NCBI RefSeq assembly: GCF_008326345.1
Contig: NZ_BJEN01000001.1
Location: 124,001 to 188,000, forward strand
Length of the DNA stretch: 64,000 nucleotides
Direction of reading: 5' to 3'
Source: Cutibacterium modestum
GTDB lineage: Bacteria > Actinomycetota > Actinomycetes > Propionibacteriales > Propionibacteriaceae
The translations under genes and the position numbers were made by a program. The notes under the pieces are model-generated. The model was not told where the DNA came from, ran no database searches, and saw only the letters and a list, made by a program, of their open reading frames with translations. Below, piece by piece: positions 1 through 25,476 of the stretch (position 1 is its first letter; every line of letters begins with the position of its first letter).

Positions 1-516
1 TGGCCTTATGACCCGGCCCGAGCGCGCAAGTTACTCGCTGACGCCGGATACAGCAATGGTCTCACGCTCAGGCTCCGTACCGCCGCATTGCCCTATGCGA
101 CGGCAGCATCCAGAGTAGTGGCTTCTGAACTGGCCCGGGTTGGTATCAACGTCGTCACTGACGAGTTGGAATTTCCCGCGCGCTGGCTCGACGTTGTCTA
201 TACGCATGCCGACTACGACTTAACTATTGTCGCCCATGTGGAGGCTCGCGACATTGTTAACTGGGCCAATCCGGATTACTACTGGCGCTACCGTAATAAG
301 GAATTTAACCGTCTCATCGAGTCGGCGCGCACTGGTCCGGCTGAGCGCACAAACGAAACTATGATGCAGGCCAGCCGGATCCTGGCCACCGACGCAGCGG
401 GTGGGTTCTTGTTCCTCATGCCGAAGATCACCATCAGTAGGGTCGGCGTCACCGGTCTGCAACGCAACTCGACGTCAATGAGTTTCGATCTGACCAAGGT
501 GAGGAGGTCGAAGTGA
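1..516 (+). CDS. ABC transporter substrate-binding protein, family 5 (partial, C-terminal end)
   Basis: Only the last 171 codons are in the window; the frame is open from base 1, so the start lies upstream. The visible protein opens with WPYDPARARKLLADAGY, a segment typical of family 5 solute-binding proteins (peptide, dipeptide or nickel binding, SBP_bac_5), in which aromatic and charged residues precede the second lobe. The protein should sit outside the membrane, probably as a lipoprotein, and deliver substrate to the permeases encoded next. Its stop codon overlaps the start of the following permease gene by 4 bases, which shows operon membership. The substrate cannot be read from this fragment; peptides are the usual ligands. 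Confidence 0.88.
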   Translation, partial: WPYDPARARKLLADAGYSNGLTLRLRTAALPYATAASRVVASELARVGINVVTDELEFPARWLDVVYTHADYDLTIVAHVEARDIVNWANPDYYWRYRNKEFNRLIESARTGPAERTNETMMQASRILATDAAGGFLFLMPKITISRVGVTGLQRNSTSMSFDLTKVRRSK

Positions 517-1490
517 CTCTCCTCAAACGTGTCCTGTTGCCCCTGGGAGAGTTGCTGGCGTGGCTGGTCGTCGCTTCCCTCGTAGTCTTTGCGCTACTCA
601 GCTTGCTCCCTGGGGATGTCGCTCAGGTCATACTTGGCGCTAATGCCGATCCAAAGGCGGCTGCTGTGGTGCGTTCACGTCTCGGGCTCGATCTTCCTTG
701 GCCTCAGCGCTACTGGGATTGGATTAGCGCCCTCGTAAGGGGTGACCTTGGTACCTCAATCGTCTCGGCCGAACCCATTGGCCCGCAGATTGCTTCTCGT
801 CTTGCCGTGACGGGTTGGTTGGTTGGGTTGTCCCTGGCGCTCGCTCTGCTGGTCTGCTTACCGGTGGGAGCGTACGCCGCGGTGCATCGTCGGGAAGGTC
901 GTGGTTTTGTGGCCTCGGCGCTGTCTCAGGTTTTGATGAGTATTCCTGCCTTCTTAGCTGGCATCCTGCTCATCTTGCTGTTTTCGGTAACTCTCGGTTG
1001 GTTGCCGGCTGGCGGCTACGTTCCTTTGCATGCGGACGTAGGTGAGTGGGCAGTCCACCTCGTCTTGCCTGTCTTGTCACTTTCAATCGTTCAGGCGGCC
1101 CTCATGACGCGGTATGTCCGTAGTGCTTTCATTGATGTGCTGGCTGACGATTACTTGCGCACCGCGCGGGCGGCCGGGTGGCGGCTGTGGCCAGCTTTGC
1201 ACCGTCACGGGCTGCGCAATGCTTCGATCAGTCTGGCTACCGTACTCGGGCTTCAGGCCAGCGCGATGCTCGTCGGTGCCATCGTCGTGGAGGAAGTGTT
1301 TGTCATTCCCGGTCTCGGCTCGTATCTTCTCGACGCGGTTAGCACCCGTGACTTGCTTGTCGTCAGCGATGTCGTCATGGTCATCGTGGCCATTGTGTTG
1401 GTCATCTCTTATCTCACAGACCTTATCGTCGTCATCCTTGATCCGCGCCTACGAACAACTGTCCGCGTTGCTCAGGAGGAACAGTCATGA
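513..1490 (+). CDS. Peptide-type ABC transporter permease (DppB/OppB family)
   Basis: This 325-residue integral membrane protein starts at GTG 513, inside the stop of the binding-protein gene, with the purine-rich stretch GGTGAGGAGG just upstream. It has an N-terminal membrane helix, a periplasmic-type loop and a block of five further helices. The EAA-type cytoplasmic loop that docks on the ATPase reads DYLRTARAAGWRLWPALHRH near residues 210-230. Length and helix order fit the DppB/OppB family, the first of two permease subunits forming the channel. It overlaps the second permease gene by 4 bases, so translation is probably coupled. Confidence 0.93.
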   Translation: MTLLKRVLLPLGELLAWLVVASLVVFALLSLLPGDVAQVILGANADPKAAAVVRSRLGLDLPWPQRYWDWISALVRGDLGTSIVSAEPIGPQIASRLAVTGWLVGLSLALALLVCLPVGAYAAVHRREGRGFVASALSQVLMSIPAFLAGILLILLFSVTLGWLPAGGYVPLHADVGEWAVHLVLPVLSLSIVQAALMTRYVRSAFIDVLADDYLRTARAAGWRLWPALHRHGLRNASISLATVLGLQASAMLVGAIVVEEVFVIPGLGSYLLDAVSTRDLLVVSDVVMVIVAIVLVISYLTDLIVVILDPRLRTTVRVAQEEQS

Positions 1491-2299
1491 GGCGAACGGG
1501 TCTGGTCATTGGGTGTGTGCTGGTTGGATTTCTCATCATCGCAGGGGCGGCTTCCGTGATATGGACCCCGCACGACCCCATTCTTGTTGTCCCAACTGAG
1601 CGGCTAATGGGGGCTAGTTGGCAACACTGGCTAGGTACCGACGGATTCGGTTCTGATATCGCCTCGCGGATGCTTGTGGGCGCCCGTACTTGCCTGCTCG
1701 TTGGTGTGGTCTCAGTGCTCATAGCAGCTGGCATCGGTGTGCCGTGGGGGGTTACCTCGGCGATGTTGCCTCGTCCGTGGTCAACAGTCGTTGGTCGAGT
1801 CGCAGACCTCCTCTATGCCTTTCCGGCACTGCTGCTTGCCATCATCCTGGCCGCTGCCGTGGGCGGATCGACGGTGACGGGAATGATTGCAATTGGGGTA
1901 TCGACGGTGCCAGTGTTCGCACGCATTACCAGAATTGCTAGCCGTCAGATCCTCGCGCAGGACTATGTGGTTGCCGCGCGCAGCTCCGGGATGCCGTGGC
2001 GATCCGTGGCTTTCAATCATGTTCTTCCCAATATTGCCCCACTGATCGGGGTACAAGCCTCTGTTTCCTATGGTATGGCGATCTTGGCTGAAGCTGCGCT
2101 GAGTTACCTCGGTTTAGCGACGCCGGCAACCGTCCCGACTTGGGGACGTATGTTGCGAGACTCGCAGGTATACCTTTTCGACTCACCCTGGTTAACCGTG
2201 GCGCCAGCGGTGGCTATCGCGGGAGCTGTGATGGGTTTCACCCTCCTTGGTGACGGATTGCGAGACTTCCTCGACCCGCGTTTGAGGGAGGTTCGTTGA
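1487..2299 (+). CDS. Peptide-type ABC transporter permease (DppC/OppC family)
   Basis: This 270-residue membrane protein is the second permease of the dpp/opp-type transporter. It starts at ATG 1487, overlapping the upstream stop, with AGGAGGAA a few bases before it. The N-terminal helix is followed by the short segment HWLGTDGFGSDIASRMLVGA, the typical start of DppC proteins, and the coupling loop VAARSSGMPWRSVAFNHVLP lies near residue 165. The final residues DFLDPRLREVR match the usual DPRLR ending of this family. It works as a heterodimer with the preceding permease in the cytoplasmic membrane. Its stop TGA shares a base with the ATG of the next gene. Confidence 0.93.
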   Translation: MRRTGLVIGCVLVGFLIIAGAASVIWTPHDPILVVPTERLMGASWQHWLGTDGFGSDIASRMLVGARTCLLVGVVSVLIAAGIGVPWGVTSAMLPRPWSTVVGRVADLLYAFPALLLAIILAAAVGGSTVTGMIAIGVSTVPVFARITRIASRQILAQDYVVAARSSGMPWRSVAFNHVLPNIAPLIGVQASVSYGMAILAEAALSYLGLATPATVPTWGRMLRDSQVYLFDSPWLTVAPAVAIAGAVMGFTLLGDGLRDFLDPRLREVR

Positions 2300-3108
2300 T
2301 GTCTCTGTTAGAGGTTAATGACCTGGTTGTGGACTTCGGACGGCACCGGCGGGTTGCCGTCGACCACGTGAGTTGGTCTCTGGACGCCGGTGAGCGCCTC
2401 GGTCTTATCGGTGAGTCTGGGTCGGGTAAATCCGTCACAGCCCTGGCGATCATGGGCCTGCTACCGGGTAACGCGCACGTGTCTGGCTCGGTGTGCTGGC
2501 GCGGTAAGGAACTGCTAGGAGCTTCGGATCATGCCATGTCAGCCCTTCGGGGCAGCAGTATTGGAATGGTTTTCCAGGAACCCATGACGGCCCTGGACCC
2601 AACTACGAAGGTCGGTCGGCAAATAGGGGAGGTGCCGCTCCTGCACCGCACCGTCAGCCGTGGCAAGGCTCGTGGGCGTGTTCTTGAAATGCTTGAGCAG
2701 GTCGGAGTCGAAGATCCAGCCAGGGTAGCGGACTCCTATCCGCATCAGCTCTCCGGCGGCCAGCGGCAGCGAGTTCTGCTAGCTATGGCGTTGGTGAATT
2801 CACCGGATCTGCTCATTTGCGATGAGCCGACGACTGCCCTGGACGTCACGGTGCAGTCTCAGGTATTGACAACTATCGACGAGGTGCTCGACTCGGTTGG
2901 CGCCGCGTGCCTATTCATTACCCACGACCTGGCGGTGGTTTCGCACATTTGTCGAGACCTCATCGTTATGACTTCGGGCAAGGTCGTCGAAGCTGGGTCA
3001 GTGCGCGATGTGTTGACTCATCCTGAGCATCCCTACACTCGTGGTCTGCTGCGAGCTGCCCGACTCGACCTTGTTGAGCCTGGGGCGACAATCGTGTTGG
3101 AGGATTGA
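2299..3108 (+). CDS. Peptide-type ABC transporter ATPase (DppD/OppD family)
   Basis: A 269-residue ATP-binding subunit. The start is taken as ATG 2299, which overlaps the upstream TGA by one base; a TTG one codon earlier is less likely. The Walker A motif GESGSGKS is near residue 40, the ABC signature LSGGQRQR near 150, Walker B LLICDEPTTALD near 170, and the H-loop FITHDLAVV near 210. The end contains the short oligopeptide-transporter extension (HPEHPYTRGLLRA) but is shorter than full DppD proteins, which often carry a longer C-terminal cluster-binding or dimer segment. It pairs with the next ATPase to power import. Confidence 0.93.
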   Translation: MSLLEVNDLVVDFGRHRRVAVDHVSWSLDAGERLGLIGESGSGKSVTALAIMGLLPGNAHVSGSVCWRGKELLGASDHAMSALRGSSIGMVFQEPMTALDPTTKVGRQIGEVPLLHRTVSRGKARGRVLEMLEQVGVEDPARVADSYPHQLSGGQRQRVLLAMALVNSPDLLICDEPTTALDVTVQSQVLTTIDEVLDSVGAACLFITHDLAVVSHICRDLIVMTSGKVVEAGSVRDVLTHPEHPYTRGLLRAARLDLVEPGATIVLED

Positions 3109-3893
3109 TGACGACTCAGATCGAGGTTGAGGACCTACACCTGCACCTAGGATCACACAGTCGGGGCACGAATGTTCTTGACAGCGTCTCGCTGCACGTT
3201 GACGAGGGTGAGCGGCTAGGTCTGGTCGGGGAATCTGGCGCTGGAAAGTCCACCCTGCTTCAGGTGATGATCGCGCTGCGACAACCAGATTCTGGAACTG
3301 TTCGTTTTAAGGGGAAATCCCTCGCGGATACCAGCGCTATCCGCGAGCTCCGGCGATCGGTTGCGATGGTATTCCAGGATCCACGGTCCTCCCTTGACCC
3401 TCGTATGAGTGTTGGAAGGGCGATCACCGAGCCGCTGCGGACGCCGGTTGCCCGGCGAACGACACGCCAACAGCGTAAGGACAGGCTGGCGAAGGTCATG
3501 GTTGATGTTGGGCTGGACCCCGACTCTGCCAGCCGGTTCCCGCACGAATTTTCGGGTGGGCAACGGCAACGCATTGCCATTGCTAGAGCCTTGATTACCG
3601 AACCCGACGTTCTGCTTGCTGATGAACCCGTGTCGGCGCTGGACGTGTCAGTGAGGGCTCAGATCCTCAACCTGCTCAATGATCTGGTGAGAGAGCGCGG
3701 CCTAACAATGGTCTTCGTCTCCCATGACTTAGGCGTTGTGCGACATCTATGTGACACGGTAGCTGTCATGAGCGTTGGGCGGGTTGTCGAGCGGGGCCGA
3801 CTTGCTGACGTGTATCGCGATCCGCAGCATGAGGTTACTCGGAAATTGTTGACAGCGATTCCACGTATCCGCGTGGGTGATTCCACCGACTGA
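3108..3893 (+). CDS. Peptide-type ABC transporter ATPase (DppF/OppF family)
   Basis: A 261-residue ABC ATPase and last gene of the transporter operon. ATG 3108 overlaps the stop of the preceding ATPase. Walker A GESGAGKS, the signature FSGGQRQR, Walker B LLADEPVSALD and switch histidine FVSHDLGVV are all present, so it should be catalytically competent. It would form an ATPase heterodimer with the DppD-like protein. A decayed fragment of this very gene is found again at about 8262-8540, directly upstream of serA. That suggests this gene and serA were once neighbours and that their junction was duplicated. Confidence 0.93.
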   Translation: MTTQIEVEDLHLHLGSHSRGTNVLDSVSLHVDEGERLGLVGESGAGKSTLLQVMIALRQPDSGTVRFKGKSLADTSAIRELRRSVAMVFQDPRSSLDPRMSVGRAITEPLRTPVARRTTRQQRKDRLAKVMVDVGLDPDSASRFPHEFSGGQRQRIAIARALITEPDVLLADEPVSALDVSVRAQILNLLNDLVRERGLTMVFVSHDLGVVRHLCDTVAVMSVGRVVERGRLADVYRDPQHEVTRKLLTAIPRIRVGDSTD

Positions 3894-3930
3894 CACGAAT
3901 GGGGTAGTCGGCTCGACGACTCTCCTAGAA

Positions 3931-4295
3931 GATGTGGGTGAGTGAAGCCTGTGATGAGGGTGACCTCATTAGTGCTCTCGGCGGGGATGACCTGTTGGAC
4001 ATCCGGTCGCGCACTCGGGTCAGGCGTCGCGTAGTGGAAGCGTGTTGCTGATCTTAGGCGGTAGGTGTCTCCTGTATTGCACGAATCAGATGGACGTTGG
4101 TGCTTTGGTTGGTGTGCCGGCGTTTAATGCCCCGTACTTGAATACCCGTTCTGCCGTTGAGTTTGCGGTGGCTGAGGTCATTGATATAGCTCGTCGTCTC
4201 AACGATCGTAACGCTCAGATGCACAATGGTGTGTGGCGCAAGTCTGAGTTTGGGTTCCACGGGATCCATGGACGCTGACGCCGGATTGTGGGCCG
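3931..4295 (+). pseudogene. Decayed duplicate of the 5' part of serA
   Basis: This stretch aligns by eye with the intact serA gene at about 8655-9022. Shared DNA includes the counterparts of DDLISALDGVDLLGIRSRTR, of NAPYSNTRSVVE (here NAPYLNTRSAVE), and of NTQMHNGVWRKS (here NAQMHNGVWRKS). It lacks the first 25 or so codons, contains an early stop and a scrambled segment around 4045-4085, and ends shortly after the codons matching HEIRGRRLGIIG. An open stretch of 78 codons survives (4042-4278), but it cannot make a dehydrogenase because both the N-terminus and the whole NAD-binding and ACT parts are missing. It starts about 40 bases after the intact dppF gene. Confidence 0.85.
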
Positions 4296-4429
4296 ATACC
4301 ACTGACCTGGAGGTAGCCATCTGAGCTCGAATTCTATGAGTCTGCTACATGCAATTTATAGCCTTGGGTGATCATGCGTTGAGTTGCACCATGTTCCAGC
4401 TGGCCGAGTTTCAAATGTAACCCAAGCTG

Positions 4430-5089
4430 TCAGCCAGTGGATTGATCTCCCTCGTCGATTTCGTTGAGGTAGTTGTAAATCGAGAACCTTGAGACCCCCA
4501 ATTCTTGGGCGGCGCGCTCGGCGGCCTCACGCAGCGAGAAAAAGCCGAGCTCCTTGAGGTTCTTGACGACTTCCACCTTGTGCTGTTTTCGCATCAGATT
4601 AACAGGAACCCCTACCTTCTTGATGGAACGAGCAAGGAACTGATCGGCTGCATCGTCGAGATCGTGGAAGAAGGACTCATTAGGTGTCGGGAACGTGGGA
4701 GTCGGGGTGGAATGACCGAGCATGAGAGATGCCACTGCTTCGATCCTCTGCCAAGCTGTGACGTCCGAGTTAAGGCAGAGGGCGGCGACCGGCTCATCGT
4801 CTGGAGCATGCACGATGATCGTTGTGGAACGCAGCAGCCGCCCATCAGGCAGACGGGACTGATAGCCCACTTGGGAGGCCAAGGTACCAGCGGCATACTT
4901 GGATAGCAGGAGATCCGTAGCTGGGCCGCCCACCTGTCTTCCCGTCAGGGATCCCTCAATGGCGACGATGGAGTTCGGCAGCATCGTGAGGTCGTGAAGA
5001 ACCACTTCGCTGTCACAGGCGAGCACATGCCTCAATGGTTCAATCAACTGTTTCAACACGGCGAAGGTCGCTTGGTAATAGTCGCTCAT
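4430..5089 (-). CDS. YheO-type PAS/HTH transcriptional regulator
   Basis: A 219-residue protein with the layout of the YheO (DauR-like) family. The N-terminal PAS-like domain (about residues 10-125) starts with a segment like LIEPLRHVLACDSEVVLHDL and contains the family stretch SVVAIEGSLTGR-like NSIVAIEGSLTGRQVGGPAT. The C-terminal helix-turn-helix (about 165-210) reads LGFFSLREAAERAAQELGV followed by SRFSIYNYL. The middle (about 130-150) looks like a variable linker. It is transcribed away from the permease and desulfidase genes at 5230-7907, so it probably controls them, perhaps sensing an amino acid. E. coli controls its cyuPA genes with an Lrp-type regulator, so this pairing is different. 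Target and ligand are inference. Confidence 0.85.
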   Translation of the reverse strand: MSDYYQATFAVLKQLIEPLRHVLACDSEVVLHDLTMLPNSIVAIEGSLTGRQVGGPATDLLLSKYAAGTLASQVGYQSRLPDGRLLRSTTIIVHAPDDEPVAALCLNSDVTAWQRIEAVASLMLGHSTPTPTFPTPNESFFHDLDDAADQFLARSIKKVGVPVNLMRKQHKVEVVKNLKELGFFSLREAAERAAQELGVSRFSIYNYLNEIDEGDQSTG

Positions 5090-5106
5090 AGCACTTCTCT
5101 CTCGAA

Positions 5107-5129
5107 CGATCGGCAGTCTGCCGCAATCG
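5107..5129. promoter_or_regulatory. Dyad in the divergent regulator/permease intergenic region
   Basis: The core CGGCA-GTC-TGCCG (5111-5123) is a perfect inverted repeat flanked by CGAT and ATCG-like arms. It lies 17 bases in front of the regulator gene start (5089) and upstream of the candidate permease promoter. It is a plausible operator for the YheO-type regulator, but no binding site for this family member is known to me. Confidence 0.4.
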
Positions 5130-5146
5130 ATCGTCTCAACTGATAG

Positions 5147-5175
5147 TTGACTCAGATCAACGATATGCTTAAGCT
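5147..5175 (+). promoter_or_regulatory. Candidate sigma-70-type promoter of the cyuPA-like genes
   Basis: TTGACT (5147-5152) and TAAGCT (5170-5175) are spaced by 17 bases. This places a transcription start near 5182 and a short leader before ATG 5230. The candidate fucI promoter at 49236-49264 has nearly the same pair of hexamers and the same spacing. Confidence 0.5.
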
Positions 5176-5229
5176 ATCACACATCATGTTGAACTTCTAT
5201 CAATGAAGGCACAAGTGAAGAGGAGTACG

Positions 5230-6522
5230 ATGCAGTACATCGCCAACCGCAGCCGGGACGGTATGTCGGAGGAGCAATGGCGTGAAGCCACTCGTTTCGA
5301 CGGTACAGACTGGGGCTGGGTCATCATGAGCATCGGCATGGCGATCGGTGCCGGGATCGTCTTCCTTCCCGTCAAGGTGGGGCTTGTCGGTTTGTGGGTG
5401 TTTTTGGCCTCCTCTGTCATCGCTTATCCTGCGATGTACCTGTTTCAGCGGTTATTCATAAACACCTTAGCCGAATCACCGGAATGCGAAGATTACCCAG
5501 GCGTAATCTCGGGATATCTGGGAAAGAACTGGGGATTCTTTCTCGGGATGCTGTACTTCATCATGTTAGTGATCTGGGTGTTCGTGTATTCGACAGCGCT
5601 CACCAATGATTCCGCATCCTTCCTCCATTCTTTCGGTATTACGAAAACTGTGTGGTCCCACAGTCCATGGTACGGGTTGGCGGTGATCTGCATCATGGTG
5701 GCGATCGCATCTCGAGCCGAAAAGGTGCTGTTTCGCATCTCGAGCTTTATGGTCCTTACGAAGTTGTCGGTGGTCGCATTACTTGGTGTCGTCATCGCGG
5801 GACACTGGAGTTTGTCCAATGTTGGTTCATTCCCCAGCATGGGATACCTACTCAAGCAGACAGTGGTGATGTTGCCTTTTACGCTCACCTCGATCCTGTT
5901 CATCCAGTCCCTCAGTCCTATGGTGATCTCTTATCGGTCTCACTATATTTCAATTGCCGTGGCTCGCTACAAGGCACTGCGGTCGATGAACATCGCCTTC
6001 GGAGTACTCTTCGTTACGGTGTTCTGCTACGCCATTTCGTTCAATTTGGCGATGGGACACGATCAAGCTGTAAAAGCCTACGAACAAAACATCTCAACCC
6101 TCGCTATGGCTGCTCAGGGTATGGGTGGAAGTACAGTAAAGGTCATGTCTTTGTTGCTCAATATTTTCGCGGTCATGACGGCTTATTTTGGCGTCTTCCT
6201 GGGTTTCCGTGAAGCTTGCAAGGGAATCGCCATGAATATGCTTCAGCGGATAATTCCTTCTGACCGTATCAATGAGAAACTCGTCAGTTGGTGCATTCTC
6301 GTTTTCGCGGTTCTCGTGTCTTGGGGTGCTATTCTACTCAATGCGCCAGTGCTGAGCTTTACCTCAATCTGCAGTCCTGTGTTCGGGATGATCGGATGCC
6401 TCATACCGGCATATCTTGTGTATAGAGTACCGGCACTGCATAAGTATAAAGGTCCAGGTTTGGTGCTTATTATCATCACTGGAGTCCTCTTGGTTGTATC
6501 ACCATTCCTAGCGTTCAGTTGA
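5230..6522 (+). CDS. HAAAP-family amino acid permease, cysteine/serine type (CyuP/YhaO-like)
   Basis: A polytopic membrane protein of 430 residues with about eleven hydrophobic segments. The opening WGWVIMSIGMAIGAGIVFLPV is typical of the hydroxy/aromatic amino acid permease family, and the length fits. ATG 5230 is chosen because GAAGAGGAGT precedes it; an in-frame ATG at 5203 has no ribosome site. The next gene encodes L-cysteine desulfidase, and in E. coli the same pair (CyuP/YhaO and CyuA/YhaM) takes up and degrades cysteine. L-cysteine import is therefore the best guess, with L- or D-serine as alternatives. It sits 32 bases before cyuA, so one transcript is likely. Confidence 0.85.
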   Translation: MQYIANRSRDGMSEEQWREATRFDGTDWGWVIMSIGMAIGAGIVFLPVKVGLVGLWVFLASSVIAYPAMYLFQRLFINTLAESPECEDYPGVISGYLGKNWGFFLGMLYFIMLVIWVFVYSTALTNDSASFLHSFGITKTVWSHSPWYGLAVICIMVAIASRAEKVLFRISSFMVLTKLSVVALLGVVIAGHWSLSNVGSFPSMGYLLKQTVVMLPFTLTSILFIQSLSPMVISYRSHYISIAVARYKALRSMNIAFGVLFVTVFCYAISFNLAMGHDQAVKAYEQNISTLAMAAQGMGGSTVKVMSLLLNIFAVMTAYFGVFLGFREACKGIAMNMLQRIIPSDRINEKLVSWCILVFAVLVSWGAILLNAPVLSFTSICSPVFGMIGCLIPAYLVYRVPALHKYKGPGLVLIIITGVLLVVSPFLAFS

Positions 6523-6554
6523 TTCTCGGATGAATTTTGCGGAAAGGACAAATC

Positions 6555-7907
6555 ATGCTGCCTGCCGAGCTCAATGATGGGCATTCCGACCGTCCAGAGT
6601 GCCGTGATGTTCCATCGACTACCGTCACCAAGCTGGCCCCAGAGGATATCGATCGGCTGCTCGACGCTCTCCATATCGGAGTGGTACCGGCTACAGGGTG
6701 CACCGAACCGGTGGCCCTTGCCCTTGCGGCCGCCCGTGCCCGACTGGCCTTGGGGCTGGCTGAGGAACTGCCTGACGATCTGCGGATTGAAGCGCGAGTC
6801 TCACGGAACATCATGAAGAATGGGATGGCCGTCATGGTGCCAGGCACCGGGTTACCTGGGCTGGAGATCGCGGCTGCGATTGGAGTGGTCGAGGGCGACC
6901 CGAATGCTGGGCTGGGGGTGCTTGCCCGGGTAACCGAGGATGGTGCTCGATGTGCTCGCCGACTGGTGGACTGCGGTGCGGTACATCTCTCGGTGGCTGA
7001 GGTGGACGACGACGTCTACGCCGAGACCGTGCTATTCGCCGGAGGGCACCGCGCCTGGGTCTGTATTGCGGGGGATCACACGAACGCCTACTTGGAGACC
7101 CGAGATGACGAGATACTGGTAAACCGGGAACGGCCAACGGCTGATCACGTGAGTCCCACGGCAAAGTTTCTCCGTACTCTCACCTTGGCCCAGTTGGTCG
7201 ATTTTGCTCGTACAGTCGATCTTGAGCGTATCGAGTTCATCGCCAACGCGGAACGTCTCAACAGCGCCTTGGTGGCTGCGGGCCGAGAGAATTCCTACGG
7301 CATTGGGGTGGGGACTGCGATGCTGGGAGCCATTGAGAACGGACTCAATTCGGATGACCTGTGTTCCATGATGACCGCCCAAGCCGCGGCCGCCTCGGAC
7401 GCCAGGATGGGTGGCGCACCGCTACCGGCAATGACGAATAGCGGATCCGGTAACCAGGGAATTGTTGCCACCGTGCCGGTGACCGTCGCGGCTGACCGTA
7501 CCCATGCTTCATGGGAGCTGCGGCTGCGTGCACTCACTCTGTCTCATGCAGTAGCGCTGTATGCGCACGCAGGTCTGCCAGTACTGTCCGCGTTCTGTGC
7601 TGCTGCCACAGCCGCGATGGGCGCGGCAGCCGGAGTGTGTTTCGTCTTGGACGGCAGCTATGAGTCCATAGAACGAGCGGTCGCGTCCATGGCTGGGGAT
7701 ACCGTCGGCATGGTCTGTGACGGCGCCGGATGCAGCTGTGCATTGAAGGTGGCGGCCTCAGTCAATGCCGCCGGGCGGGCCGTGACGCTGTCGTTGGCGG
7801 GTCGCCGAGTGCCCGGCACCAACGGGCTGGTTCACGATGACGTTGATGCCGGTCTGCGAAGCATCGGACGTTTTGGTGACCCGCGGTATGAAGGAAACCG
7901 ACTCTGA
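6555..7907 (+). CDS. cyuA: L-cysteine desulfidase (CyuA/YhaM family, former UPF0597)
   Basis: A 450-residue cytoplasmic enzyme expected to split L-cysteine into pyruvate, ammonia and sulfide using an iron-sulfur cluster. The family motifs are visible: GVVPATGCTEPVALALA near residue 45, NSGSGNQGI near 290 and CDGAGCSCALKV near 390. These supply the conserved cysteines thought to hold the cluster. ATG 6555 is preceded by GGAAAGGA at good spacing; an upstream TTG at 6537 is less likely. It follows the amino acid permease on the same strand. The product could serve as a carbon, nitrogen or sulfide source, or guard against excess cysteine. Serine dehydratase activity is an alternative that the sequence does not exclude. 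Confidence 0.88.
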   Translation: MLPAELNDGHSDRPECRDVPSTTVTKLAPEDIDRLLDALHIGVVPATGCTEPVALALAAARARLALGLAEELPDDLRIEARVSRNIMKNGMAVMVPGTGLPGLEIAAAIGVVEGDPNAGLGVLARVTEDGARCARRLVDCGAVHLSVAEVDDDVYAETVLFAGGHRAWVCIAGDHTNAYLETRDDEILVNRERPTADHVSPTAKFLRTLTLAQLVDFARTVDLERIEFIANAERLNSALVAAGRENSYGIGVGTAMLGAIENGLNSDDLCSMMTAQAAAASDARMGGAPLPAMTNSGSGNQGIVATVPVTVAADRTHASWELRLRALTLSHAVALYAHAGLPVLSAFCAAATAAMGAAAGVCFVLDGSYESIERAVASMAGDTVGMVCDGAGCSCALKVAASVNAAGRAVTLSLAGRRVPGTNGLVHDDVDAGLRSIGRFGDPRYEGNRL

Positions 7908-8261
7908 GATTTTATCGATCATGATGGCCAAATAAGGCCGCCAATCGTACTGACCGTACGCTCAAGGTGGAGAATGTGGTCATGATCTTCCGGCGTGAGG
8001 CAGGGCGCGGGCATCGAGTAGGCGACGTAGTGACTTGATGCGCGGTGGGGGCTGTGCTGGAGGTTAAGGTTTCGGGGGCGCACACTCGAGGCTGTTCACG
8101 GTCGCCGCATTGAACTCTTCGGATTTGGCCAGGTCCTCATCGAAAGCGATGCGGGACAGGCCGAAGGGGCGCACCTTGGCGTGCGATGACCCAATCGCTT
8201 TCTGGTAACGGTTTGGCGTTGCTGGAACGCCCCTGCGACGGTCTGAGTCCAGTTTGGTTTT
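7908..8261. other. Gene-free stretch upstream of the dppF remnant
   Basis: About 350 bases with no convincing gene. A short piece near 8060-8090 (GAGGTTAAGG and CGCACACTCGAG) faintly recalls the start of dppF but is too weak to claim. No clear terminator follows cyuA; only a small GGCC-AAATAA-GGCC hairpin is seen near 7927-7940. Confidence 0.4.
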
Positions 8262-8540
8262 TCGAGAAGTCTCTCACCGACTCCAACGCCATCCGCGGCC
8301 TTCTCTTGATCCTCGATGAGTGTTGGGAAGGCGATTACTGAGCCGTTGCGGACTCTGGTTACCAGCTGAAGCGTAAGGACAGGTTGGCGAGGACCAGGAA
8401 TGATGTTGGTTTGGATCCCGAGACTGCCGGTTGCTTTCCGCACGAGTTTTCGGGTGGGCAGCATCAACGTATTGCGATTGCTAGGGCTCTGATTACTCGG
8501 GAATTATACGTATCCGTGGGGGACGATTCCACCCACTGAG
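8262..8540 (+). pseudogene. Decayed duplicate of dppF (peptide ABC ATPase)
   Basis: Aligned by eye with the intact gene at 3108-3893. The remnant encodes a counterpart of KSLADTSAIREL, then [16 protein letters not shown], then KDRLAKVMVDVGLDPDSA and [21 protein letters not shown], and finally the gene's last residues (RIRVGDSTD and stop). The Q-loop piece between the first two blocks and the whole Walker B to near the C-terminus are deleted, and there are frame changes. It cannot encode an ATPase. It ends 45 bases before the intact serA gene, which mirrors the serA fragment lying just after the intact dppF. Confidence 0.88.
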
Positions 8541-8585
8541 ACAACCGCAGCGAGTCCGCCCTACCTTGTCCATACACTGACAGCT

Positions 8586-9776
8586 ATGAAGGCGCTCCTG
8601 CTCGAAAATATCCATGACGAGGCGGTTCGGACACTGAAAAAGGCCGGATACGAGGTCGAGCGAGTAAGTGAGGCCCTTGATGAGGACGACCTCATCAGCG
8701 CCCTTGACGGAGTTGACCTGTTGGGCATCAGATCACGCACCCGCATTACTCGTCGGGTCGTTGAGGCCTGTGGAGGCAAGCTCAGTGCGGTTGGTGCCTT
8801 TTGTATTGGCACTAACCAGATGGATCTTGATGCGTTAGCCGAGGCCGGTGTTCCCTCCTTTAACGCGCCTTACTCCAATACCCGTTCCGTCGTTGAGCTT
8901 GTGATGGCAGAGATCATCGCTTTGGCCCGTCATCTAGGCGATCGAAATACTCAAATGCATAATGGCGTGTGGCGTAAATCCGCCATCGGGTCACACGAAA
9001 TCCGTGGACGTCGACTGGGTATCATCGGGTACGGCAATATCGGCCAGCAACTGTCGGTCGTGGCGGAGGCCATGGGCATGCAGGTGTTTTTCTACGACAT
9101 TGCCGATGTTTTGCCTATGGGTAACGCTCATAAGTGTGACTCCATGGAAGAGCTGCTTGGGAGCGTCGAGACGGTGTCCCTTCACGTCGATGGACGCCCT
9201 AGTAACATCAACCTTATTGGCGATCGCGAATTCGCTATGATGCGGCCGCGATCCCTCTTTTTGAACTTGTCGCGAGGCAAGGTCGTCGACATCAATGCCC
9301 TCGTTGACAATCTGCGGACTGGGCATATCGCTGGTGCAGGAGTAGATGTCTACCCCGAAGAGCCAACCTCCGGTAAAGAGCCGTTTATTTCTCCGTTACG
9401 TGAGATGGACAATGTTATTTTGACTCCGCATATTGGGGGTTCCACTCAAGAGGCCCAGGTTGATATCGGTCGCTATGTCGCCGGGAAGCTCATCGACTAT
9501 GTAGAGAACGGCGCGACTGGAATGAGTGTCAATTTTCCTGAGATCACTCCGTCGCCTCGCACGGGTGCTCGTATCGGCCATCTGCATCGCAATGTCCCGG
9601 GTGTTATGGCCACCCTGAACCGACTCGTTGCTGATCAAGGGGGAAACGTCACTTACCAGGCCCTGGCGACGAAGGGGGAGTTCGGTTACTGCGTTCTCGA
9701 CATTGCGGAGACTGACGGCGGGCTGCTCGCCAACGTCACCGATCTTGACGGGACGATTCGGGCTCGCATCCTCTAA
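8586..9776 (+). CDS. serA: D-3-phosphoglycerate dehydrogenase
   Basis: A 396-residue enzyme for the first step of serine synthesis, oxidising 3-phosphoglycerate with NAD. The NAD-binding motif GIIGYGNIGQQLSVVAEAMG is near residue 145. Catalytic elements include NLSRGKVVD near 230 and LTPHIGGSTQEAQ near 280 with the active-site histidine. An ACT-type regulatory domain fills the last 80 residues (GVMATLNRLVADQGGNVTYQ), so feedback control by serine is plausible. The length matches the E. coli type rather than the roughly 530-residue mycobacterial form with an extra domain. ATG 8586 aligns with family starts. A partial dead copy lies at 3931-4295. Confidence 0.93.
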   Translation: MKALLLENIHDEAVRTLKKAGYEVERVSEALDEDDLISALDGVDLLGIRSRTRITRRVVEACGGKLSAVGAFCIGTNQMDLDALAEAGVPSFNAPYSNTRSVVELVMAEIIALARHLGDRNTQMHNGVWRKSAIGSHEIRGRRLGIIGYGNIGQQLSVVAEAMGMQVFFYDIADVLPMGNAHKCDSMEELLGSVETVSLHVDGRPSNINLIGDREFAMMRPRSLFLNLSRGKVVDINALVDNLRTGHIAGAGVDVYPEEPTSGKEPFISPLREMDNVILTPHIGGSTQEAQVDIGRYVAGKLIDYVENGATGMSVNFPEITPSPRTGARIGHLHRNVPGVMATLNRLVADQGGNVTYQALATKGEFGYCVLDIAETDGGLLANVTDLDGTIRARIL

Positions 9777-9808
9777 TTGCGGGGTGGGGGTGTGACTATG
9801 ACGCGCGT

Positions 9809-10597
9809 TCACTCCTGAGGTTGGATCATGGCCAGGGCCTGGTCATGGAGGAAACCATTCGATGCCAGTGCGTTACCCGACCACGGGCCATCCTTGCCAT
9901 CGAGACCGGTGAACTTACCGCCAGCCTCAGTGACGATGACGTCGAGGGCGGCCATGTCGTGCAAGCCAAGTTCCGGCTCGCACGCCAGATCGACGACACC
10001 TTCGGCCACCATCATGTAAGACCAGAAATCGCCGAAGGCCCGGGAACGCCACACTGACCGCATGAGTTCACCGAACCCGCGCCCTCTTCTGTTTTCCACC
10101 CAACCGTGCAAAGACGAATAGGATAAGAATGCGTCGTTAAGGCTACGTACATTTGAGACGTGGATCGGTGTCGCTGAGGCCAGGGACTTGCCTGACCATG
10201 CCCCTAAGCCACGGGCAGCCCACCAGCGTCGCTTGAGGGCAGGAGCAGAGACCACAGATGTGACAATCTGATCCTCGACGCTGAGGGCGATGAGGGTGGC
10301 CCACACCGGAACTCCCCGCAGGAAATTCGCGGTGCCGTCAATCGGATCAATGATCCACCGCCGGGGCCCATCTCCGGTATCGGCCCGCTCCTCCCCGTGG
10401 ACGGCGTCTCGGGAGCGTATCCGAGACAGGGTTCGGCGCACCGAGTCTTCGACGGCAAGGTCGGCGTCGGTGACCTCGGAATTGTCAGGCTTAGTCGAGA
10501 TCGTCAGACTTCGGGCACCGAAACGCGACATCGTCAGCGAGTCAGCGTCATCAGCGAGGATATGTGCTAGTCGGAGGTCATCAGTGTGGTCGGCCAT
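9809..10597 (-). CDS. hisN: Histidinol-phosphatase, inositol monophosphatase family
   Basis: A 262-residue protein of the magnesium-dependent inositol monophosphatase fold. The metal-binding motif WIIDPIDGTANFLRGVP is near residue 85, preceded by the GEE element (HGEERAD), and the second motif AALDVIVTEAGGKF is near 220. The segment SVEDQIVTSVVSAPALKRRWWAARGLGAW is typical of the actinobacterial HisN group, which dephosphorylates L-histidinol phosphate. ATG 10597 is chosen because AAGG lies 7 bases upstream; a GTG two codons earlier is possible. In many actinobacteria hisN lies next to rsgA and aroA, as here. A generic inositol-phosphate phosphatase cannot be excluded. Confidence 0.82.
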   Translation of the reverse strand: MADHTDDLRLAHILADDADSLTMSRFGARSLTISTKPDNSEVTDADLAVEDSVRRTLSRIRSRDAVHGEERADTGDGPRRWIIDPIDGTANFLRGVPVWATLIALSVEDQIVTSVVSAPALKRRWWAARGLGAWSGKSLASATPIHVSNVRSLNDAFLSYSSLHGWVENRRGRGFGELMRSVWRSRAFGDFWSYMMVAEGVVDLACEPELGLHDMAALDVIVTEAGGKFTGLDGKDGPWSGNALASNGFLHDQALAMIQPQE

Positions 10598-10689
10598 ATC
10601 CACACCTTACTGGGACCAAGTCGAGGAGATGAGAAACGCCAGTATCCTTATTACTGACGCTATACCGATGAGGTACTTTCGCTCCGTCG

Positions 10690-11200
10690 ATGGATAGGAT
10701 CCTAACGAGTGCACGGCTGAAGCAAAGATATCGGACTCATCCGGCTGTGGATCACCCGCTCTATCTTTTTGGCAAATCTTATGGAACGGTCCGAGCCGTA
10801 AGCGTCGCTCGGTGGTCGCAGGGCACCTTGTCTATGTACCTCAACGGCATCATCCTAGTGATGTTGGTTCTTGACTTTGACACTCAGGGTTTCGAGGACC
10901 TCGCCTGGGGTCGCGCATGCATCGGTTTGCTGCCCACGTACGTGGCGATTGCTCACTATCACGGTCACAGTTTCGATTGCAGCCTCGAGGATGTCCTTGC
11001 CGAGGCCGAGAGGTTTGCAGACGGCCCCTATCGCAAGGCGGTTAGCTTTCAGGACACCGCTTCGGCCCGGCAAAAGAGGCCCAGATGGTCCCGCTCTCTC
11101 GCGATTCGTCAATTCCAGCAGGCGCGCTGATCTTCGCATCGAGCACATGAGATTCTGCGCAGAACTGCTGCGAAGCAGGGGAAGGCCGACGGACGCTATA
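10690..11200 (+). pseudogene. Remnant of an S10-family serine carboxypeptidase
   Basis: The first open piece contains LYLFGKSYGTVRAVSVA, clearly the nucleophile region of S10 peptidases (normally GESYG, with the serine kept), then YLNGIILVMLVLDFDT, LPTYVAIAHYHG and AERFADGPYRKA, all in family order. After about 11060 the frame is lost; the next family block, RADLRIEHMRFCAELLR, appears in another frame near 11125-11175. The N-terminal third and the end carrying the catalytic aspartate and histidine are missing. It is therefore a non-functional leftover of a protein that is normally around 500 residues. Confidence 0.8.
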
Positions 11201-11341
11201 CGGGTGCTGTGCCCAAGCGAACCGACGAGACTGCCGATACAGTATCGCTACCTTTATCCGTCAGCATCCCACGGTGCTCCGCGCCTTGAGAGCCAGGACG
11301 AGCATGGCAACAAGGACTGAGCGGTGCGACTCGCCCTCCGA

Positions 11342-12343
11342 TCAGCGGGGGGCGGTGGCGCCCAACAGTCGGCGAAGCGAGTCCACCCGTGATTGCTGCA
11401 CTCGCCCCTCGGAGACGGCCTCGTCAAGTGCACACCCCGGGCTGTTATCGGTGTGGTGGCATCCTCGGGGGCAATCGGCGGAAGCGGCATCAAGTTCTTC
11501 GAATCCGGCCAGAATGTCCTCGGCGTCGACATGGGATAAACCGAAGGATCGCACCCCGGGGGTATCGATGATCCAACCGCCCTCAGGCAACGGGATCGCT
11601 TCCGCGCTGGTAGAAGTATGGCGTCCTCGCCCGGTGACGTCATTGACATGGCCAGTGACCCGGTTGACGCCAGGGACCAGAGCATTAATGAGAGTTGACT
11701 TACCGACACCCGAGTGACCGACGAGAACGCTCACTTTTCCCCCAAGCAACTGATGTAGTCCGGTGAGGTCTGTTCCCGGCTGGCTTGTAACGACGGGTAT
11801 TCCCAGCTTCAAATATATCGCGGCGAAGTTGTCACCGGATGCGAGGTCAGCCTTCGTGAGGCAAAGGATTGGGGAGACTCCCGCTGCATGGGCCGCCACG
11901 AGAATCCGATCGATCATGCCTGGACGAGGCGGGGGAGCAGCAAGAGCCGTGACGATGACCACCTGGTCGGCATTGGCGACGATAGGGCGTTCATGGGGGT
12001 CGGTGTCGTCAGCGGTACGCCTGAGTACAGTGGCACGCTCTTCGGTATGCACGATCCTGGCTAAGGACCCTTCAACCCCTGACACATCGCCGTCAAGCCG
12101 TACTTTATCGCCGACAATGACTGATTTGCGACCGAGCCGGCGAGCCTTGGCGGCAATCACTTCCACACCGTCGTCGAGACGACAGCGGTAGCGGCCACGA
12201 TCGATGGTGATAACGGTCCCGATCGGCAACGACGAGTGGTCAGGTCGCTGCTTGGTTCGCGGCTTTGTGCGGCGCCTGGGACGGTCATAGGAGGACCAGT
12301 CGCGCGTATCAATCCCAGAGGAGGCTAAGCGTCGAGGAGACAC
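11342..12343 (-). CDS. rsgA: Ribosome small-subunit-dependent GTPase
   Basis: A 333-residue circularly permuted GTPase that assists late 30S ribosome maturation. An OB-fold comes first (LPIGTVITIDRGRY onward). Then come the GTPase motifs in permuted order: the G4 element CLTKADL, P-loop GHSGVGKSTLIN and G3 DTPGVRSFGL. A zinc site (CPRGCHHTDNSPGC) follows near the C-terminus. The frame stays open upstream into aroA, but GTG 12343 is the sensible start: it has AGGAG at 7 bases and lies just after the aroA stop. It is translated right after aroA, so both probably share a transcript. Confidence 0.92.
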   Translation of the reverse strand: MSPRRLASSGIDTRDWSSYDRPRRRTKPRTKQRPDHSSLPIGTVITIDRGRYRCRLDDGVEVIAAKARRLGRKSVIVGDKVRLDGDVSGVEGSLARIVHTEERATVLRRTADDTDPHERPIVANADQVVIVTALAAPPPRPGMIDRILVAAHAAGVSPILCLTKADLASGDNFAAIYLKLGIPVVTSQPGTDLTGLHQLLGGKVSVLVGHSGVGKSTLINALVPGVNRVTGHVNDVTGRGRHTSTSAEAIPLPEGGWIIDTPGVRSFGLSHVDAEDILAGFEELDAASADCPRGCHHTDNSPGCALDEAVSEGRVQQSRVDSLRRLLGATAPR

Positions 12344-12344
12344 G

Positions 12345-13634
12345 TCAATTCTCCTGGACAAGGTCGGCCCACATCTGCGGGAATTGCGGCATAGTCTTGG
12401 ATGTGCAAGCGATATCATCGAGCTCAATTCCGTCGATGACAAGTCCAAGAAGAGCCCCGGCGTGAGCCATCCGGTGATCGGCGTAGCACCTAAACTTTGC
12501 ACCGTGGGGCTTGTCAGCGCCCTGCCCAGTGATGTCTAGGCCGTCGTCGGTTTGCTGGATCTCAACGCCGAGGTTGGCTAGTTCGTGCGCAAGAGCGGCA
12601 AGGCGGTCTGTTTCGTGGCCGCGAATATGCGCCACGCCACGGATACGCGAGCGGCCGAAAGCGACAGAGGCCACCACTGCAACAACTGGTGTAAGCTCGC
12701 TGGCTTCATGAAGGTCGACGTCGATAGGCCGCAACTCCTGCCAGCCTTGGGCGGTGATAGTCATGGAGTCGTCAGTACGGGATATCCTCGCCCCCATCTT
12801 GTCGGCGATTCCCACGAATTGGGCTCCAGGTTGGATGCTGTCCGCAGGCCAAGCCGGCACCGTTACAGACCCGCCGACCACCAAGGCAGCGGCGAGGAAG
12901 ACTGCGGCATTGGTGAGATCTGGTTCAATGGCGTCATCAAAAGCGTGTATCGGTCCGGGGCGTACGACCCAATGGCACGGCTCATCTGAAACCACAGTGA
13001 CGCCTCGGTCCGCCAGCATGGCGCAGGTCATGGCGATGTGAGGGGCCGAGGGAACCGACGCCCCATCATGACGGAGGTCGATTCCCCGCGGGAAACGAGC
13101 CCCGGCTAGCAACAGGGCCGAAATGAATTGGCTCGATGCCGCTGAATCAATCGTGACCTCAGGGCCACCGAGGCGGTCCGGGGCTCTCAGAGAAAATGGC
13201 AGTTGGTCAGAATCAACCTCGACGCCGAGCTGGCGCAACCCATTGAGAACTGGCCCGATAGGGCGTCGGGAAGCTGGCTCGTCGCCCACGAACTGGGTCG
13301 ATCCAGGCACCAAGGCTGCCACGACCGGAAGAAACCTCATGACGGTACCGGCCAATCCACACTCGATCGGACCGGCTGGACGAGCCAGACGTGGCACGAC
13401 CCGAACGGAGGATGGGCCGACAGACTGGATGTCCGCGCCGAGGCGCTGTAGACCGGCCGACATAAGAAGGGAATCTCGGGAGGTCAAAACGCCGTCAAGG
13501 ATGCTGGGCCCGTCACCGAGAGCTGCGAGGACAAGGGCACGGTTCGTCTGGGACTTTGACCCTGGGACCACAACGCGCCCCGCGAGACGGTGGTGGGCTC
13601 GTGGGGCGGTCCACAAGTGCTGGTCAGTCAGCAA
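12345..13634 (-). CDS. aroA: 3-phosphoshikimate 1-carboxyvinyltransferase (EPSP synthase)
   Basis: A 429-residue enzyme transferring enolpyruvate from PEP to shikimate 3-phosphate in the aromatic amino acid pathway. The substrate motif GSKSQTNRALVLAAL is at residues 24-38, LAGTVMRFLPVVAAL near 95, and RGHETDRLAALAHEL plus DHRMAHAGALLG near the C-terminus, all standard for the family. The start is uncertain. TTG 13634 overlaps the end of the doxX-like gene by 11 bases; a TTG a few codons downstream is also possible. No ATG lies near. The order hisN-rsgA-aroA next to sigH is familiar from other actinobacteria. Confidence 0.93.
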   Translation of the reverse strand: MLTDQHLWTAPRAHHRLAGRVVVPGSKSQTNRALVLAALGDGPSILDGVLTSRDSLLMSAGLQRLGADIQSVGPSSVRVVPRLARPAGPIECGLAGTVMRFLPVVAALVPGSTQFVGDEPASRRPIGPVLNGLRQLGVEVDSDQLPFSLRAPDRLGGPEVTIDSAASSQFISALLLAGARFPRGIDLRHDGASVPSAPHIAMTCAMLADRGVTVVSDEPCHWVVRPGPIHAFDDAIEPDLTNAAVFLAAALVVGGSVTVPAWPADSIQPGAQFVGIADKMGARISRTDDSMTITAQGWQELRPIDVDLHEASELTPVVAVVASVAFGRSRIRGVAHIRGHETDRLAALAHELANLGVEIQQTDDGLDITGQGADKPHGAKFRCYADHRMAHAGALLGLVIDGIELDDIACTSKTMPQFPQMWADLVQEN

Positions 13635-14256
13635 TCTTCTTCTGAGCCTTCTTGGCCTTTTTCTGGGCCTTCTTTTGAGATCTAGCGGCTTCCTTCTGTG
13701 CCTTCTTCAGCTTCTTACGAGCTGACCTCGATAGGTCATTGACCGACGCGGTGATGGCCTTGCGCTGGTCGCCTGCAGCTGAGGAAACGCGGCGCTGAGC
13801 GTCGGCGGCACGCCAGGCCAGGCTTGGGCGACCGGCGGTGTCGACGGAGGCCATCATCGCCCCACCAAGCAAAGCGACGTTGCGCAGCAAGACAGAGCGA
13901 GCTGCGGTGCGCTCATCCTTAGGCAAGGACTTATCAGGAATGGAGGCGAGCACATGCGGGACCATCGTCGCAGCAACGACGCCGGCACCTGCGCGACGTG
14001 CAAGGCCGGTTGCCATTCCGAGGCCACCGAAGACCTGGGCCGCACCGGTGGCGCGGACCAATGTCTTGGTGTCCTCAGGAATGTAGGCACCGACAGATGC
14101 CGGTAGTGCGCGCTGTACCAGAGGGAGGAGACGGTCAGCGACCGGCTCGGCATCCTCCACGAAAGAATCGGGCTTCATCGCGGAGTTCGTCCCCTTAACG
14201 ATGAAGTAACTGGCGAACATGGTCCGGCCCAAGCCTCGGATGATACTCATGGTCAT
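13624..14256 (-). CDS. DoxX-family membrane protein with lysine-rich tail
   Basis: A 210-residue protein. The first 130 residues hold four likely membrane helices and the DoxX-type segments ASYFIVKGTNSAMKPD and RATGAAQVFGGLGMATGLARRAG. The last 60 residues are hydrophilic and very rich in lysine, alanine and glutamine (KKAQKKAKKAQKKIAD), probably a cytoplasmic basic coiled tail. DoxX proteins in mycobacteria sit with redox and detoxification partners in the membrane; a role in redox stress is possible given the nearby sigH but is inference. It overlaps the start of aroA, suggesting cotranscription. Confidence 0.75.
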   Translation of the reverse strand: MTMSIIRGLGRTMFASYFIVKGTNSAMKPDSFVEDAEPVADRLLPLVQRALPASVGAYIPEDTKTLVRATGAAQVFGGLGMATGLARRAGAGVVAATMVPHVLASIPDKSLPKDERTAARSVLLRNVALLGGAMMASVDTAGRPSLAWRAADAQRRVSSAAGDQRKAITASVNDLSRSARKKLKKAQKEAARSQKKAQKKAKKAQKKIAD

Positions 14257-23917: not shown

Positions 23918-24039
23918 CGATAGGCCCGATGGCCCCGACCTCCCACCGACTCTAGCGCACCGGTGGGGTGCTTTGCTATTCACGGTCGCGAGTATGGACA
24001 CCCTGCGATCGTGTCGGTGGCCTCTGGCAAAGTGGAATC

Positions 24040-25476
24040 ATGACGCATATGCACGTTGCCGGCTCGGTTCATGCCGATGTCGCGGCTGCCGGCCCTCAAT
24101 GGTTGACCATGCCCGACGACGTCAACGTATTGGACCCTGCGCTCTGGTCAGCATCGGCTGATCGCGGTGACAATGGAATCGTTGACGTGGCGGGGGTGGC
24201 CGTCACCGAATTGCTACGTCAATACGGGTCTCCTCTCTACGTGCTTGACGAGTCCGATTTCCGGCAGCGTGTACGGACCTTCCGCGACGCTTTTTCTGGG
24301 TGGGACGTCTACTACGCAGGCAAAGCTTTTTTAACCCGCACGATCGCCTCTTGGATTGACCAGGAGGGCCTATGCCTGGATACCTGTACCGGTGGCGAGC
24401 TCCTGACAGCTCTGCAAGGTGGGATGGATCCTGCCCGGATCGGCCTGCACGGGAATAATAAGTCAGTTGACGAACTTAAGTTGGCTCTTAGTGCGGGGGT
24501 TGGACGGATCATCGTCGACTCCTTAGATGAAATCACGCGCATTGAACAATTGTGTCGAGAAAACGGCTGGCATGCCCGCGTCATGGTGCGAGTCACAGCA
24601 GGCGTCGAGGCCCATACCCATGAATACATCGCCACTGCCCACGAGGATCAAAAGTTTGGTTTCTCCATTACCAACGGTGCAGCGATGGTTGCCATGGTGA
24701 GGTGTCACACCAGTAACGTTATCGACCTGTTGGGCATTCACTCCCACATCGGTTCCCAGATCTTCGACACCGCTGGCTTTGAGGTGGCGGCTCGGCGCAC
24801 TATGAAACTTCTTGAGCAGTTCCGCCAGGCCACCGGGAGCGCCCTCGCTGAACTCGATCTTGGCGGCGGATTCGGTATTGCTTACACCAGCCAAGATTCC
24901 CCGGCCACCGCCGAAAGCCTCGCTGAGGCACTTCGCGAGATCGTCGCTGTGGAGGCTCGGGGGAGGGGTATGGAAATTCCTCATATTTCTCTGGAGCCAG
25001 GCCGTGCGATTGTAGGGCCGACGACGATGGCCCTGTACACCGTTGGCACTGTGAAGCCAGTTGACCTGGATACCGGCGCCCAACGGATTTATGTCTCCGT
25101 TGATGGCGGAATGAGTGACAATATTCGTCCTGCCCTCTATGCCGCCGAGTACTCCGCCGTCGTCGCTAACCGAGCGTCTAAAATCGCTCCGGTACTGTGC
25201 CGCGTAGTCGGAAAGCACTGTGAGGCTGGCGACATTCTGGTGCGTGATGTGTATCTGCCCGGTGATGTTTCTCCTGGTGACGTTATCGCTGTTCCGGGAG
25301 CCGGCGCCTATTCCAGGTCAATGGCGTCGAACTACAACCATGTGCCGCGCTCGGCTGTGGTGCGAGTTGGAACAGGGGATGATCCCGACGTCTCGGTCCT
25401 GCTACGCCGGGAGAGTATCGACGACCTCCTTGCGCTTGATCCGGGGCCTGTCCGTGCAGCTGTGCAATACCCGTGA
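24040..25476 (+). CDS. lysA: Diaminopimelate decarboxylase
   Basis: A 478-residue PLP enzyme making L-lysine from meso-diaminopimelate. The PLP lysine lies in VYYAGKAFLTRTIASWI near residue 95. The glycine-rich phosphate site DLGGGFGIAYT is near 275, EPGRAIVGPTT near 325, and DGGMSDNIRPALY near 355; the C-terminal barrel has GAGAYSRSMASNYN. ATG 24040 is used; the frame is open upstream to 23968 but the added residues look spurious. It starts the long same-strand block of aspartate-family and housekeeping genes, 70 bases before hom. Confidence 0.95.
   Translation: MTHMHVAGSVHADVAAAGPQWLTMPDDVNVLDPALWSASADRGDNGIVDVAGVAVTELLRQYGSPLYVLDESDFRQRVRTFRDAFSGWDVYYAGKAFLTRTIASWIDQEGLCLDTCTGGELLTALQGGMDPARIGLHGNNKSVDELKLALSAGVGRIIVDSLDEITRIEQLCRENGWHARVMVRVTAGVEAHTHEYIATAHEDQKFGFSITNGAAMVAMVRCHTSNVIDLLGIHSHIGSQIFDTAGFEVAARRTMKLLEQFRQATGSALAELDLGGGFGIAYTSQDSPATAESLAEALREIVAVEARGRGMEIPHISLEPGRAIVGPTTMALYTVGTVKPVDLDTGAQRIYVSVDGGMSDNIRPALYAAEYSAVVANRASKIAPVLCRVVGKHCEAGDILVRDVYLPGDVSPGDVIAVPGAGAYSRSMASNYNHVPRSAVVRVGTGDDPDVSVLLRRESIDDLLALDPGPVRAAVQYP

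Follow-up and report, generated by a model that had tools for sequence, protein, structure and literature searches.

A cysteine desulfidase island between dppF and serA of Cutibacterium modestum, bordered by broken direct repeats of its host junction and probably acquired by a single homologous crossover

How could a group of metabolic genes have settled between two housekeeping genes, with a broken piece of each neighbor left on the far side of the other? This question is raised by a locus in the 64,000-nucleotide stretch of Cutibacterium modestum DNA analyzed here (the window), which is part of a 2.63-Mb genome in nine contigs. The genes follow each other as intact dppF, a broken serA piece, a regulator gene on the minus strand, a permease gene, a cyuA-like gene, about 330 bp of noncoding DNA, a broken dppF piece and intact serA. 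The intact dppF (3108..3893, plus strand), predicted to encode an oligopeptide/dipeptide ABC transporter ATPase, lies downstream of dppB-D-like genes; its product matches ABC_tran with E 1e-36, and its top NCBIfam matches are named as dipeptide/oligopeptide ATPases, the scores against those listed being below the respective cut-offs. The intact serA (8586..9776, plus strand) encodes a D-3-phosphoglycerate dehydrogenase of 396 aa, which scores above the cut-off of the NCBIfam model PRK11790.

The regulator (4430..5089, minus strand) combines a YheO-like PAS domain (PAS_6, E 1.2e-24) with HTH_22 (E 9.1e-20). The product of the permease gene (5203..6522, plus strand), an amino-acid permease, matches TIGR00814 with E 2.8e-126, below the cut-off of that model (421.8 vs 525.8); it is placed near the serine/threonine transporter subfamily and might possibly be a cysteine importer (CyuP-like). 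The third gene (6555..7907, plus strand) encodes a CyuA-like L-cysteine desulfidase (SDH_alpha, E 3.8e-45), whose best stretch against the solved L-cysteine desulfidases 9he0 and 9fsl comprises residues 267-410 (E about 1e-20). These similarities suggest that the island genes serve the use of cysteine. The arrangement is like cyuP-cyuA of Escherichia coli in that the permease gene adjoins that of the CyuA-like desulfidase, and unlike it in the regulator, which is a PAS_6/HTH_22 protein in the island and CyuR, of the Lrp/AsnC kind, in E. coli. In the cited parts of the respective papers, the E. coli genes are described as an operon for a cysteine importer and a desulfidase (PMC9040844), and cyuPA as being regulated by CyuR in a Cys-dependent manner (PMC11408624). 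Our literature search returned no paper dealing with both Cutibacterium and cysteine desulfidase and, in the titles and abstract beginnings of the matches listed, nothing on the dppF-serA island locus.

The two broken pieces are direct repeats of the dppF-serA junction, since they and the intact genes lie on the same strand. When window positions 1-14000 were compared with the window by blastn, the serA piece (3938..4274, plus strand) aligned with serA positions 8664-9010 over 347 columns (71.8% identity, E 8e-45, same strand), and the dppF piece (8239..8542, including the dppF 3' tail and leading into the usual spacer, plus strand) aligned by its part 8291-8496 with dppF positions 3379-3598 over 220 columns (74.5% identity, E 1e-36, same strand). 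No repeat pair besides these two was found in a self-search of the whole window (E 1e-8, low-complexity filter on). The preliminary description of this DNA had noticed that intact dppF is followed by a broken serA piece and intact serA preceded by a broken dppF piece, and had suggested aligning the paired segments; blastn bears out the layout, and both alignments are significant. Its term "mirror-image" copies is apt for the gene order only and fails for the orientation, both copies being same-strand direct repeats.

By BLAST the serA piece corresponds to codons 27-142 of 396, and in the MAFFT alignment it begins at about codon 23; the alignments of this copy (3938-4274) show no recognizable serA start or plain dppF-serA spacer. 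The dppF piece comprises codons 91-164 according to BLAST, the support of which begins at 8291, or starts at about codon 60 according to MAFFT, its extension to 8239 resting on the multiple alignment. Some 265 bp of dppF are absent between the piece and the dppF 3' tail, which occupies 8508-8542 (score 38; the highest of 500 mononucleotide shuffles scored 20), and in the alignment the usual dppF-serA spacer adjoins the dppF piece. Direct repeats of host DNA border the cargo on both sides, and each border gene is present in one full and one truncated copy with complementary ends (the serA piece without 3' part, the dppF piece without 5' part). Both pieces are dead: each of the three forward frames has stops, in 3931-4320 as well as in 8239-8545. 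In 609 columns they show 39, 40, and 92 differences from the intact genes of the window at codon positions 1, 2, and 3, respectively, as compared with 14, 11, and 74 between the intact genes of the window and of C. namnetense (genome G007) in the same columns; at codon positions 1 and 2 taken together, these are 79 differences for the pieces vs 25 for the two sets of intact genes.

As comparison with related genomes shows, the ancestral order was dppF-46 bp-serA, because relatives keep the plain junction. Island-free forms, the search for which had also been suggested, do exist. In the same-genus set (the window's genome and G001-G008, n = 9, one genome per species), dppF is joined to serA across exactly 46 bp and without cyuA in five genomes (G001, G003, which we take to be probably C. 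acnes, G004, G005, and G006), and in G002 and G008 the two genes are neighbors without cyuA across longer gaps. Thus, the island is absent from this site in seven of nine genomes and present in two, the window's and G007. Among the seven neighborhoods fetched outside the genus, serA has dppF on its upstream side, again with no cyuA, in G009, G011, G017, G019, and G020, and no dppF is found in the stretch fetched for G012 and G013. The dppF-serA gap of G002 (L036) measures about 340 bp and contains repeated CCCGTCCTCGCCGAGG units.

We consider that the island probably entered by a single homologous crossover within a dppF(3')-serA(5') segment of approximately 1.0-1.1 kb carried by incoming DNA. 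This DNA would have held the regulator, permease and cyuA genes beside a segment that extended from the dppF interior through the spacer to the serA interior, i.e., from dppF codon 91 (BLAST) or 60 (MAFFT) to the gene end, and on to serA codon 142, and would have undergone one homologous recombination with the chromosomal dppF-serA junction. On a circle, a crossover anywhere in the segment would yield full dppF, a 5' serA piece, the cargo, a 3' dppF piece and full serA; as one complete copy of each housekeeping gene would be left, the insertion need harm neither of them and an integrase would be unneeded. The truncated copies would decay after the insertion, and the missing serA start and dppF interior can be read as such decay. 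Later, the locus could be moved or lost via ordinary recombination between its flanks. In the laboratory, this type of event is familiar as single-crossover (Campbell-type) integration of non-replicating plasmids with an internal chromosomal segment, which likewise leaves full gene A, truncated B, cargo, truncated A and full B and needs homology only. Unlike laboratory integration, the event proposed here would be natural and old, no carrier is seen, and the repeats are 72-75% alike and broken, so that a simple pop-out is now unlikely.

The ends that the pieces lack were searched for in the stretches adjoining them, 7992-8238 and 4275-4430. For the 5' part of dppF there was no signal in 7992-8238 (278 and 281 of 300 shuffles scored as high under strict settings, 115 and 54 of 300 under lenient ones); for the rest of serA in 4275-4430, 221 of 300 shuffles reached the strict score, and the lenient score, reached by 12 of 300 (z 2.1), was not counted as a signal. 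A dppF 5' remnant placed in 7992-8238 by the multiple alignment was discarded, the placement being forced and its scores no higher than those of shuffles. Given that no clear trace of the missing ends was found there and that the geometry is that of a single crossover, decay from two full copies need not be assumed. The earlier proposal of a duplicated dppF-serA junction around the island therefore stands, as relatives keep the plain junction, while its second half, the decay of redundant halves, is not required, since truncation at birth suffices. Erosion has affected the joints near 4275-4320 and 8239, and none of the genomes compared (one per species) shows an intermediate form with full-length repeats. 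As to a circular donor, megablast found no match of window positions 3000-9800 in plasmids; 137 plasmid records have a CyuA match, all below 60% identity, and no relatives of the permease were found in viral contigs.

None of the marks of an integrase- or transposase-borne island (a recombinase gene, a tRNA target, terminal repeats) was found. Pfam revealed no transposase among the products of the three island genes or in three peptide pieces, and PHROGs no phage family in six frames, some small frames lying outside this recombinase search; no tRNA is present in 1-14000, and there are no repeats at the ends of 3894-8585, the interior of which holds a single 14-nt direct pair and a single 15-nt inverted pair. 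The absence of any visible transposase or integrase, claimed from the outset, agrees with the searches made. Of the noncoding stretch 7908..8238, the first 80 bp or so are common to C. namnetense (81% identity, query 3-83), and the remaining 7992-8238 (about 250 bp, separating cyuA from the dppF piece) has no match in that genome. A peptide piece encoded there had raised the suspicion of an IS transposase; as a transposase remnant it was rejected, the only Pfam match being Ribosomal_S14 (E 0.07), the best match in 20 genomes besides the piece itself having E 0.08, and those in plasmids E 0.2 or worse. A mobile element that inserted here with the gene pieces as passengers and later lost its enzyme genes is thus very improbable: 7992-8238, being of obscure origin, could hide an eroded element, but the searches just described gave no sign of one, and the cargo is flanked by direct copies of the host junction.

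The other two alternatives would both produce the observed gene order. One of them, which we regard as rather doubtful, is homology-facilitated illegitimate recombination of linear DNA, with one end homologous in the dppF-serA segment and the other joined by chance inside serA. Such recombination has been reported, in the parts of the papers cited, for three competent species and for E. coli conjugation (PMC3240628, PMC3784515), and, like the event proposed for the island, it anchors foreign DNA by one homologous stretch without an integrase (PMC3240628); it differs in needing a linear molecule and a chance joint. However, the rate given for E. coli is 3e-10 per recipient cell, and linear DNA was there degraded, or circularized and integrated by single crossing-over (PMC3240628, as far as cited). 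Both routes, by circle or by linear DNA, would end in the same product, and no feature of the present sequence tells them apart. In the other alternative, a tandem duplication of dppF-serA came first, the cargo was inserted later at the new joint and one gene of each pair then decayed. Although bacterial tandem duplications are said to be common and unstable (PMC3784515, in the part cited), we find this course of events quite unlikely: it needs two events, the second of them at the joint and with no transposase trace found, clear remnants of the missing gene ends are not seen beside the pieces, and a duplication without cargo occurs in none of the eight other same-genus genomes.

The single crossover would have left a more eroded scar in C. 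namnetense, in which permease and cyuA genes also lie between dppF and serA, their products sharing 93.6% and 90.2% identity, respectively, with those of the window. Directly after dppF of C. namnetense there is a 30-bp serA match (score 35; shuffles: mean 16.4, maximum 27, 0 of 300 as high), which represents the same part of serA that begins the serA piece of the window, and before serA there is a 72-bp match to the dppF end (score 69; shuffle maximum 28, 0 of 300 as high). One event before both loci separated is the simplest account of the two scars, and, as C. namnetense shares the site with far shorter dppF and serA remnants, this event would be older than one species. The island regulator has no match at the C. 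namnetense site (L041). Regulators resembling it (47-53% identity) are encoded elsewhere, at G007:C2:235122-235784, at G000:C1:356114-356755, and at G003:C1:1137984-1138625.

With second codon positions taken for decay and third positions as the clock, the decay time of the pieces is approximately 0.80 of the half-distance between the window's genome and G007 (95% bootstrap 0.51-1.23), in rough agreement with a shared scar. The third-position distance is 0.70 (0.53-0.88) between the pieces and the window's own genes vs 0.50 (0.39-0.65) between the latter and those of G007, the intervals overlapping; a higher distance of the pieces would fit a donor of another lineage. The pieces may accordingly come from such a lineage, or else their age may be misjudged. 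Ten placements of the pieces on a fixed species tree were compared for two data sets: those beside G006 or G004 were rejected (p-AU 0.011-0.019), and eight of ten were not rejected by p-AU, including the branch between the two species groups, the stems of which are one and the same unrooted branch. Naming a donor from the tree of the pieces was abandoned, these being too short (placement support 32-65% in four trees).

The flanking genes point to a more complicated history. For 22 neighboring genes (24,498 columns; 26 genes minus three block genes and the gene 23967-25473, misaligned in G007), the tree has G003 and G007 as sisters, and each of the four alternatives tested is rejected (p-AU at most 0.0004). 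serA together with the next gene (his) rejects the 22-gene tree (p-AU 0.002), with G007 outside the window's genome, G003 and G001, while for dppF by itself the species tree is not rejected (p-AU 0.63); in these trees, a differing history is statistically shown for the serA side of C. namnetense only. A tree of dppD and serA with G007 outside was superseded. In 600-column windows, the G007-G003 identity is 82-86% from 8.3 to 10.6 kb in the coordinates of the window and 84.5-93.7%, mostly at least 87%, from 11.5 to 27.5 kb; the G007-G006 identity is not lowered near serA, which makes faster evolution a poor explanation. In addition, over positions 10758-11517, after the minus-strand gene 9809-10603, identity to relatives falls, and some columns are missing in G007.

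These comparisons suggest an unsampled lineage as the source of the serA side of C. namnetense, possibly together with the island, by a transfer that we infer. As G003 is sister to C. namnetense on 22 genes and yet has a clean junction, a loss or a transfer must be added to the account: loss from G003 and G001, or a separate transfer into the window's lineage and C. namnetense, would fit equally. Tentatively, and with more doubt than confidence, we suppose that the island is a recombinase-free allele of the acnes group, which arose near the group base by a single crossover like that of a suicide vector, was cured cleanly in the G003 and G001 lineages, either through recombination at the duplicated junction or because an island-free allele was exchanged for it, and reached C. 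namnetense from an unsampled lineage by way of flank homology.

The locus would exemplify a known outcome of recombination, and it can be read unusually well because there are both empty and more eroded versions of it. A visible mobile element is lacking next to many accessory genes; in this locus the entry scar survives and can be compared with the empty site and an eroded sister copy. If the reading as a single crossover is true, one exchange within some 1 kb of common DNA brought in a metabolic function with neither neighbor harmed, and the loci of the window and C. namnetense show as a pair how such scars fade.

A cyuA homolog is present in four of 37 relatives, namely in the window's genome, G007, G003, and G016 (marginal, E 3e-4), and in 20 of a phylum sample of 396 genomes at E 1e-30 (the window's included), the others sharing at most 43% identity. 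A second permease-cyuA cassette, that of G003, has 70.5% DNA identity and lies at a different site (L092, G003:C1:263000-280000, at about 5.9-8.7 kb of the reverse complement). Its cyuA is split between two frames, and the cassette adjoins a large reverse-strand gene, which we assume to be ileS.
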